Below, one piece after another: positions 30,511 through 47,910 of a stretch of 64,000 bases of DNA (the stretch's first letter is position 1; each line of letters starts with the position of its first letter). The notes under the pieces are model-generated. The model saw nothing but the letters and a program-made list of their open reading frames with translations, was not told the DNA's origin and searched no databases. The translations under genes and the position numbers were made by a program. The DNA comes from Bacillota bacterium (lineage in GTDB: Bacteria; Actinomycetota; Aquicultoria; Aquicultorales; Aquicultoraceae): NCBI GenBank assembly GCA_023511485.1, contig JAIMBH010000014.1:1-64000 (forward strand), written 5' to 3'.

Positions 30511-30840
30511 TTATTGTTCTTCTTTCTTAAGGATCTGGTCAAGCCTTCTGACTATGTCATAATAAGATATATAGCCTGCGCTTATCGCTTCACCATTTAA
30601 AAACGTCAAAGGAAATGGCAGGTGATGTGTTTCGATTAACCGCCTAATATCGGGATGGATCTCATCCCCATTGATATCAAAGTAGTTGATATTTACCGCA
30701 TCACCATAATCGGCTTTAAGAGGCTCAATTACCATCCAGCTTATCTCGGCCCGAGACAGACCATATGAGCCTCACCCAAAACCGCATGAACTTCCATCGT
30801 TAAATATGTCTATCCTTATCGGCTTTGTAACAGCATCCAA
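30511..30840 (-). CDS. Probable selenoprotein: thioredoxin-like with C-x3-Sec motif
   Basis: The frame runs from a TTG at 30840 (GGGGAGG 8 bases upstream) to a stop at 30511 and is interrupted only by a TGA at 30772-30774. Read as selenocysteine, the protein is 109 residues. It starts KPIRIDIFNDGSSCGFG, then Sec23, then GSYGLSRAEISW. The strand-turn-Cys layout, the following helix, and LPFPLTFLNGEAI near residue 75 (a cis-Pro-like turn) fit a small thioredoxin-fold redox protein somewhat like YuzD. Both codon context and protein sense continue across the TGA, and a SECIS-like hairpin lies just after it. Without readthrough, an internal ATG at 30735 would give 74 residues lacking the active site. 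It is the last gene of a ferredoxin/coiled-coil operon. A nonsense mutation is the main alternative. Confidence 0.75.
30742..30758 (-). promoter_or_regulatory. Bacterial SECIS-like hairpin
   Basis: On the mRNA, UGUCUCG-GGC-CGAGAUA forms a 7-bp stem (one G-U) with a 3-base loop beginning GG. The loop starts 20 bases after the UGA. A short stem, a G in the first loop positions and that distance match the general bacterial SECIS pattern bound by SelB. Confidence 0.65.
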
Positions 30841-30854
30841 CCCAAAAACCTCCC

Positions 30855-31094
30855 CTAGGCTTTCAAGGCCTCTTTAACAAGATTTATTTTCTCCTCAATT
30901 ATCGAGATCTCGCGATCAAAAGAATTGCGGTAGGATTCTATCTTGCTGGCGTTGACATGAACACCGGTCTGGCCCAGTATTAATCTTCTCTCGATTTGTA
31001 TATCCTCGAGATTTTCTTCAAGGATTTCAAGTTCTTCTTGAAGCTCATCCTTGCTCATTGCTTTAATCTTCTCCAGATACTCCTCGGCAACCAT
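30855..31094 (-). CDS. Small coiled-coil protein
   Basis: A 79-residue, almost wholly helical and acidic protein (EEYLEKIKAMSKDELQEEL, then EENLEDIQIERR), predicted to form a helical hairpin with a turn near GQTGVHVNAS. The ATG at 31094 follows GGAGGG; it starts 11 bases after the ferredoxin stop and its end lies 14 bases before the selenoprotein start, so all three are co-transcribed. No family recognised. It may be an adaptor holding the redox proteins together. Confidence 0.75.
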   Translation of the reverse strand: MVAEEYLEKIKAMSKDELQEELEILEENLEDIQIERRLILGQTGVHVNASKIESYRNSFDREISIIEEKINLVKEALKA

Positions 31095-31105: not shown

Positions 31106-31345
31106 CTATCGCATATTTATTGCGCCAACAGGACACCTGGTTGTGCAAATACCACAACCTAAGCATAAATCCTCATTAACCGTATATGACGGCCTGGGAC
31201 CGAAGCCAAAGAATGCAGCTAGCGGATCCGTTTGCATTTCGCTTGTAATTGCTTTTGTCGGGCATATCCTGCTGGCCGGGCATGCCGGCGAACGGTCGCA
31301 TCTGCTTTGATCGATCTCTGCTTTTTTTAACGTTTGTCTTGGCAT
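31106..31345 (-). CDS. Two-cluster ferredoxin-like protein
   Basis: A 79-residue protein with seven cysteines: Cys16, Cys22 and Cys28 (C-x5-C-x5-CP) and a canonical C-x2-C-x2-C-x3-CP at Cys61, 64, 67, 71. The second set plus a Cys from the first would bind one [4Fe-4S] cluster; the first set is short by a ligand for a normal second cluster and may bind a modified or [3Fe-4S] cluster. First gene of the ferredoxin / coiled-coil / selenoprotein operon, so a likely electron donor or acceptor for the redox protein. A CsoR-type palindrome lies 29 bases upstream. Confidence 0.85.
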   Translation of the reverse strand: MPRQTLKKAEIDQSRCDRSPACPASRICPTKAITSEMQTDPLAAFFGFGPRPSYTVNEDLCLGCGICTTRCPVGAINMR

Positions 31346-46226: not shown

Positions 46227-47399
46227 TTAAATCCCCTCCTCAGTTACAATCTCAAGTGGCTTAAACGATTGGTCGAGTGAGAAGTTTTCAACCGGCTGCT
46301 GCAGATAGAAATTGCCTTGCTTGATCCATTCCTTTAAGGTTGCAGCTATTTTTCTCGCTTTACTATAGCTGGATATTGGAGCCGTGCGAACTTGCTTGCC
46401 GTTTATTTCTATCTTTCCGCTTCTAAGCTCGGCATAACTTACTTTGCCTAAACTTGGTTTAGAGCGTTTTTCCACGCTGTAATCTAAAATCGTGCTGTAG
46501 ATATCTTTGTCGCTAATACTTGCTTTCTCGACAACATCCGTATCGAGCACTGGTATCGGGACTCCCACACCAACAAACATCGTCGTACCATAATTATGGA
46601 AAGTCGCTGCTCTCAAGAACTCAGTACTCATTTTCTTTAAGTCACCGATTAGCGCAAGTGTACCTGCAGGGGCTGTTGGAACTCCGTTTTCACCACGGGC
46701 TTGGTTTGGGTTAAACTGCGTTCCCTGCCAGGCAACATACCCTGGAGCGCCTCCTAAAAATATCCTGGTTCCTATCCCGATGGTGCGGTAGAATGGATCA
46801 TTTATCAATGGGCTAAGCTGACTTGCGCTGCAGTATGTGGCATTGCCAAGGCGCGGCAAAAGCGTCCCCATGTACGTGTATAGAATCCTCGACGATGTGT
46901 TTGTGGCTATTGCGTAGTTTTGGTATGCGTTTCTTGGGTTAAATAAATACGCTTCGTTTAGTGTGTCTTTATGGATAAAAGTTGCGATATCTTTTCTTGG
47001 ATAGCAATCCGTGCCGTAAGCTTTGGATACAAGCTTTACTCTCTTGCCGGCGACAAGGTCCTCAATAACGTGAGCACCGCCATACATCATGCCCGCCGTT
47101 TCGGAAAGTTCAGTCGCGCCGATATAAGCATCGACCGCCGCAAGACCCGCATACGCCGGAACATCGTTTAGCCATACCTTCGTCATTTTTATTGGCGGGT
47201 CGGAGTGGCCAAAGTTAATGAATGCACCGGTCGAGCACATAGGGCCAAATGTCCCTGTGGTAATAACATCTACTTTTTGGGCAGCTTTCTCAACGCCCAC
47301 ATCATTGACTATGTCAATGATTTCTTCGGCGGTCACAACAACCGCCTCGCCTCGCCGTATCTTCTCATTGATTTCTTCATAAGTCTTTTTAACGGCCAT
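46227..47399 (-). CDS. Homocysteine synthase, DUF39/HcyS
   Basis: A 390-residue DUF39 protein, homologous to MA1821 of Methanosarcina, which with its NIL-ferredoxin partner makes homocysteine from aspartate semialdehyde and sulfide. Signature stretches: ITTGTFGPMCSTGAFINFGHSDPPIKM near the N-terminus and IFLGGAPGYVAWQGTQFNP in the middle. GGAGGTAAGT precedes the ATG. First gene of the hcyS-NIL-ferredoxin operon controlled by a methionine T-box; core-MetE lies just after. Confidence 0.9.
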   Translation of the reverse strand: MAVKKTYEEINEKIRRGEAVVVTAEEIIDIVNDVGVEKAAQKVDVITTGTFGPMCSTGAFINFGHSDPPIKMTKVWLNDVPAYAGLAAVDAYIGATELSETAGMMYGGAHVIEDLVAGKRVKLVSKAYGTDCYPRKDIATFIHKDTLNEAYLFNPRNAYQNYAIATNTSSRILYTYMGTLLPRLGNATYCSASQLSPLINDPFYRTIGIGTRIFLGGAPGYVAWQGTQFNPNQARGENGVPTAPAGTLALIGDLKKMSTEFLRAATFHNYGTTMFVGVGVPIPVLDTDVVEKASISDKDIYSTILDYSVEKRSKPSLGKVSYAELRSGKIEINGKQVRTAPISSYSKARKIAATLKEWIKQGNFYLQQPVENFSLDQSFKPLEIVTEEGI

Positions 47400-47595: not shown

Positions 47596-47910
47596 AAAAA
47601 AATCCCGCCCCATAATGGGACGAGAGATATTCCCGCGGTACCACCCAAATTCAGCCAGTAACTGCAAATACTTTGCGCCTGCTAGGTTTTTACTGCATAA
47701 ACTGGCTGCCCTTGAGACCAGATAACGGCTGGCCAACCGTCCGGCTCTACTCGAACGCCATCATATGCGCTCTTTCTTCCGAAAGCTCAGGGACCATGTT
47801 CAATCCGCACACCGCCCCAGCTTTCACCTCACCTGGGTCTCTTTTAGCGGCTGATATAGGATTTACTCATTCCCCTCTCAGCTTAGGCGATTTTTTGGCA
47901 CTTTGTGCCT
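47596..47910 (-). promoter_or_regulatory. T-box riboswitch, methionine-type
   Basis: The conserved T-box GGGTGGTACCGCGGG lies at 47632-47646. The 5' stem I (about 47783-47885) has the AGTA motif (47864-47867) and its specifier codon is ATG (47795-47797) in AACATGG. The terminator (stem 47603-47611 / 47617-47625, then a T7 run) lies at the downstream end. Binding of uncharged initiator- or elongator-type tRNA-Met would favour the antiterminator and turn on the homocysteine operon. A TTGACA-like -35 (47942-47947) precedes it. T-box assignment is firm; the codon is read from the expected place in stem I. Confidence 0.9.

Follow-up and report, generated by a model that had tools for sequence, protein, structure and literature searches.

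A predicted thioredoxin-fold selenoprotein related to DUF1462 and ArsD in Actinomycetota

The minus-strand gene at 30840-30511 of the stretch of DNA analysed here (64,000 nucleotides of an Aquicultoria contig, hereafter the window) very probably encodes a selenoprotein of 109 residues from the thioredoxin-fold DUF1462/YuzD-ArsD group, most likely a redox protein with a Cys/Sec pair. The selenoprotein prediction, which is made from sequence, is strongly supported, and the recoding, the family and the fold are backed computationally. A sequence-only reading of this DNA had already proposed a probable selenoprotein here, and the findings agree: the sel genes are present, homologues carry TGA or Cys at or beside the site, and none of the outcomes named in advance as refuting the proposal was observed. 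Annotation routinely cuts selenoprotein genes at UGA, so that a family represented in dozens of genomes can go unseen; in this case a standard gene call would retain just a remnant of 74 aa.

Gene, fold and candidate roles

The gene and the elements around it are as follows.

30511..30840, minus strand: predicted selenoprotein gene, 109 aa, thioredoxin-fold, DUF1462/ArsD-like, with TTG start and TAA stop
30772..30774, minus strand: in-frame UGA, predicted Sec23; the homologous codon is TGA in all close homologues and Cys in most non-Sec relatives
30784-30786, minus strand: Cys19, partner of Sec23
30742..30758, minus strand: core of the predicted bacterial SECIS hairpin, a 7-bp stem (30758-30752 with 30748-30742) and a GGC triloop
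30849..30855, minus strand: Shine-Dalgarno-like GGGGAGG, 8 nt 5' of the TTG, overlapping the upstream gene's stop codon
30473..30497, minus strand: terminator-like inverted repeat AAAAGCTCCC-TCC-GGGGAGCTTTTT 3' of the Sec gene, read by eye and absent from the output of the automatic terminator scan

The translation from 30840 to 30511 is LDAVTKPIRIDIFNDGSSCGFG-U-GSYGLSRAEISWMVIEPLK...KKEEQ*, with the TAA stop at 30513-30511, and confirms a frame interrupted by a single TGA at 30772-30774. The TTG start aligns with ATG in two homologous loci (L010 and L012). AGGAGG is found 5' of the ATG or TTG in relatives, aligned with the GGGGAGG of the window (30855-30849), which lies 8 nt ahead of the TTG.

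AlphaFold2 models, in which Sec was entered as Cys and the active-site C..U loop has low confidence, show a beta-alpha-beta-alpha-beta-beta-alpha thioredoxin fold (pLDDT 81 and 83). The top Foldseek match is the DUF1462 protein 1xg8 (E 1e-5, TM 0.63), and ArsD structures rank next, among thioredoxins. The family profile likewise matches 1xg8 (E 7e-10) and weakly matches ArsD (E 0.7). The window protein itself scores 19 bits against Pfam DUF1462 (PF07315), under the gathering cut-off of 25, whereas a distant relative (L038) clears this cut-off with 34.7, so the protein is related to DUF1462 and is not a member by that family's own cut-off. The ArsD models of Pfam and NCBIfam have no match to it at E up to 1, and ArsD sequences (L076 and L086) surface at the tail of the family search. 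The protein is thus kin to DUF1462 and more remotely to ArsD, and belongs to neither family as each defines its own members. The earlier description as thioredoxin-like stands at the level of fold, but the nearest kin are DUF1462/YuzD and then ArsD, not thioredoxin itself.

With DUF1462/YuzD (PF07315; PDB 1xg8 from S. aureus), the window protein shares the thioredoxin-like fold, the size, the location of the Cys pair and the C-terminal half with the pattern around P77 and NGE..GYI; it differs in having Sec for the second Cys and the spacing C-x3/4-U in place of C-x2-C. With ArsD (3ktb, 3mwh, 3kgk) it shares the fold, and C-x4-C-G-P of ArsD matches C-x3/4-U-G-[SP] of the family, but the vicinal CC, the C-terminal Cys pairs and an ars operon are lacking. 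The As(III) site of ArsD is formed by Cys12, Cys13 and Cys18 (Lin, Yang and Rosen 2007, as cited in PMC4562236); SCGFGU of the window protein offers one Cys plus Sec.

The neighbouring genes of the window with counterparts near the Sec gene in other genomes are as follows.

30855..31094, minus strand: charged protein of 79 aa, coiled-coil-like by eye, with no Pfam family over cut-off; co-directional with the Sec gene and adjoining it in relatives too
31106..31345, minus strand: ferredoxin-like protein of 79 aa with two Fe-S motifs; near the Sec gene in L012, L022 and L038
31584..31928, minus strand: small hydrophobic membrane-type protein with no NCBIfam match; conserved in the neighbourhood in L012, L016, L020 and L021
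34306..36249, minus strand: orphan molybdopterin oxidoreductase, upstream, scoring under every NCBIfam equivalog cut-off; a conserved neighbour in L012 and L020

Farther along the same strand, a T-box leader (47613-47888(-), Rfam RF00230, 104.5 bits) lies upstream of the gene at 46227-47399(-).

The ferredoxin gene is found near the Sec gene across three lineages. In other lineages, the Sec gene lies beside genes for thioredoxin and an FmdB-like zinc ribbon, and in family f32 (L069:26-1370) it is located 3' of the genes for 2-thiouracil desulfurase (TudS) and a ThiI-like ATPase, a context that suggests a role in sulfur or selenium transfer. Given this variation among lineages, the ferredoxin link may not be general. 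The theme common to the neighbours is the chemistry of soft atoms (S, Se, As), which makes both redox and carrier roles possible; together with the ArsA and ACR3 genes seen on a side branch, these neighbours point to sulfur, selenium or arsenic handling as candidate roles.

Under the mechanism that we propose, SelB and Sec-tRNA would insert selenocysteine at the UGA (30774-30772) under the direction of the hairpin immediately 3' of it. Sec would then replace the second member of a Cys pair of the ArsD/YuzD type, located between strand 1 and helix 1, and the conserved Pro77, directly ahead of the third strand, would occupy the cis-Pro place of thioredoxins. We infer that Cys19 and Sec23 most likely alternate between selenenylsulfide and thiol/selenolate forms, with electrons that would come from the ferredoxin encoded two genes upstream, and that this cycle would serve to reduce or carry a soft substrate, be it a disulfide, a persulfide or a species of As, Se or S.

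There is also a tentative case for a carrier, namely that the Cys/Sec pair is not that of a redox enzyme and serves to bind a metalloid or chalcogen (As(III), selenide or persulfide) and pass it on, as ArsD passes As(III) to ArsA. The alignment of C-x3/4-U-G-[SP] with CC-x4-C-G-P of ArsD and the rank of ArsD structures just behind DUF1462 are consistent with this possibility, as are two contexts in relatives. One relative, with Sec at an extra site (GG-U-GPVCEPADCGP; L024, G016:C6), is flanked by the genes for an ArsA-type ATPase and for an arsenite transporter, ACR3, and is possibly a Sec-containing ArsD-like chaperone, and Cys forms adjoin an arsenite methyltransferase (L039). However, no ars genes are found near the window gene, its product combines a single Cys with a single Sec and does not have the vicinal CC of ArsD, and the neighbouring ferredoxin points to electron transfer, all of which argues against a carrier.

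Conservation and decoding of the TGA

A search with the single sequence over 100 relatives located the gene in 12 genomes, its own among them. The relatives identified by name are Candidatus Aquicultor and its neighbours (class Aquicultoria, phylum Actinomycetota). All nine homologues within the taxonomic family of the window (56-83% identity) keep the TGA, as does one in a different family of the order (38% identity). A profile search extended the set over 397 genomes of Actinomycetota, and 15 further, more distant homologues from other families and classes have TGA at the homologous codon. In the broader profile search, 29 matches contain one TGA each, and the sole match with a TAA (G122) has it at the end of the protein; no internal TAA or TAG was found within any of the homologues read. 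Within the class of families f32 and f38, exactly one TGA is present in 28 of 28 matches, 17 of which come from genomes new to the survey and were scored by TGA count, not by codon-by-codon reading. Searches of viral contigs and, with tblastn, of plasmid records returned no homologue.

The motif around the site, C-GFG-U-GSYGLS in the lineage of the window, becomes C-FSGG-U-GPSW and C-SGG-U-GPSWS in f55 and f32 and C-RGGG-U-[AG]P[PS]LS in f38. The C-x3-U arrangement described for Cys19 and Sec23 accordingly applies to the window gene, but the spacing varies, with C-x4-U in L014 and several distant members. In one locus (L073), Trp replaces the first Cys, so that a partner Cys is not strictly needed.

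Aligned across 41 relatives, the Sec column has U in 25, C in 14, Y in one and a gap in one. The Y is that of a Cys-rich form (L063) with a Cys adjacent to the column. Homologues thus have TGA at the site, or Cys at or beside it, and none terminate there. Since the TGA recurs across independently assembled genomes, it is not a read error for TGG, TGC or TGT.

It is highly improbable that the TGA is an ordinary stop, in which case the locus would be a pseudogene or would encode a short peptide ahead of a distinct gene that begins with the ATG at 30735. TGA is a stop in table 11, and an ORF of 74 aa does begin at this ATG; as had been pointed out from the sequence, it is a remnant without the active site. 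The TGA, its flanks and the frame are, however, kept across several classes, and in L025 and members of f32 and f38 another codon stands in place of the ATG while the TGA and the site are retained. None of the homologues read has a TAA or TAG inside. Furthermore, the impression of protein-like sequence on both sides of the TGA is borne out by purifying selection: 3' of the TGA, dN is 0.08-0.10 vs dS of 1.4-1.8 for the two nearest relatives (dN/dS of about 0.06), and the codons 5' of it, few as these sites are, evolve under similar constraint.

The genome that carries the gene (58 contigs, 100% complete) encodes selC (76 bits), selB, selA and selD, clustered on contig C47, so that all four genes looked for are present. 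Genes resembling hypB and hypA share this cluster (L026). The selD gene of this genome (L026, upstream of 5240(-)) itself has an in-frame TGA ahead of the first annotated Met (LTQYSHKSGUAAKMSPGDL), accompanied by a GG-loop hairpin of its own at nucleotide 18, and the organism therefore holds a second, well-known kind of Sec gene. Two draft genomes, G001 (97% complete) and G010 (77%), contain the TGA gene, and selA or a full selB was not detected in them; because the sel genes are clustered, a single missing contig would most simply account for each case. In a test of selB at E 1e-70, the gene is present in 14 of 14 genomes with Sec forms and absent from all four genomes with non-Sec forms only (G102, G142, G122 and G384, the last of which carries an ArsD). 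Many genomes without the family also have selB, and the association is therefore one-way.

The hairpin core follows the UGA closely, with the GGC loop starting at nucleotide 21 (MFE -13.0), and the geometry proposed from the sequence (a 7-bp stem and a GG loop at +21) is thus as described. The single-sequence fold, however, is not exceptional (z -0.95 vs dinucleotide shuffles, no better than chance; P 0.067 vs synonymous recoding), so that the case for a SECIS element rests on comparison with relatives. RNA folding across the group predicts mostly stems of 7-12 bp with a GGC or GGA triloop 18-24 nt past the UGA, within the published limits for bacterial SECIS elements (PMC13188914). Paired cells amount to 98.9% for 13 distinct sequences and 97.7% for 19. 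One stem pair is broken in L061 and L064, and another in L016. The covariation score exceeds those of 500 of 500 shuffles and of every slid control; the pair adjacent to the loop by itself takes all of the forms AU, UA, CG, GC, GU and UG. Codons within the hairpin show 25% synonymous change vs 54% in the remaining gene. Paralogs with Sec at a second site were excluded from this main test and considered separately because several have shorter or weaker stems.

That the TGA is read as some residue other than Sec, through a code change or a suppressor tRNA, would leave the frame open in any code in which TGA specifies a residue, but this is scarcely credible given the full Sec system with tRNA-Sec, the conserved SECIS-like hairpin, the Cys at the homologous column in relatives and the lack of selB where non-Sec forms stand alone. 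Sequencing error, ordinary stop and code change were all rejected on the evidence of conservation.

Sec at other positions and comparison with known selenoproteins

A second relative in the same genome (L089, G000:C25:11279-11572(-)) has its in-frame TGA at a different Cys position, VVYTTVPSG-U-RSCISASGDKEF, the site being PSG-U-RSC. Related genes in five related genomes follow the pattern PSG-U-[SC]S[ST]...[GS]CG (in one form, PSG-U-SSSGPAGGCG), with Sec at the first and not the second Cys. A third group of paralogs (L083, L085, L084) has PRSG-U-GPRFTAGSC; L084 carries TTA (Leu) in place of the Sec codon, possibly a recent loss of Sec, along with a weaker hairpin. The hairpins of the second-site paralogs are weaker than those of the main group.

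In the tree, the label of Sec at the second Cys takes three changes, and this state may have had a single origin. We consider it probable that these genes represent a large set of thioredoxin-fold selenoproteins that has escaped recognition in Actinomycetota. Its basis would be a Cys pair like that of ArsD and YuzD, with Sec at the second Cys in some lineages and, in others, at the first or at an additional site upstream. If so, the group connects selenocysteine in these bacteria with the chemistry of metalloids or sulfur or with ferredoxin-dependent reactions. The alternative positions of Sec within one fold amount to a natural experiment on its part in the Cys pair.

The description as an unrecognised type agrees with the searches. 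No model of NCBIfam release 20 matches the window protein (E up to 1), and the family is absent from the catalogue of 119 prokaryotic selenoprotein families in a 2026 review (PMC13188914), where DUF1462 does not appear in Table 1 and no CxxxU or CxxxxU motif is given. Among the models of the catalogued families, those from NCBIfam, TIGRFAM and Pfam were compared, and none of them matches either. The window family is not among the new families of the deep-Sep paper; those of Haft and Tolstoy 2025, compared through their NCBIfam models, gave no match. Paper searches on selenoproteins with DUF1462, YuzD, ArsD or Aquicultor turned up no account of the family. It would bring selenium to the DUF1462/ArsD fold, for which the catalogue (PMC13188914) has no selenoprotein.

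Among known systems, SaoT, the HUIPC-motif proteins and UXX-star (NF040730, NF047660, NF041114; PMC13188914) are likewise Trx-like or Grx-like selenoproteins, but their motifs are UxxC or UxxT and the window protein has no NCBIfam match. The Brachyspira proteins Sec.1 and Sec.2 (PF13192; PMC5330540) resemble it as small thioredoxin-fold selenoproteins; PF13192 gave no match to the window protein in the Pfam search, and the Brachyspira proteins differ from it in belonging to the Thioredoxin_3 family and in carrying Sec in an N-terminal extension (PMC5330540).
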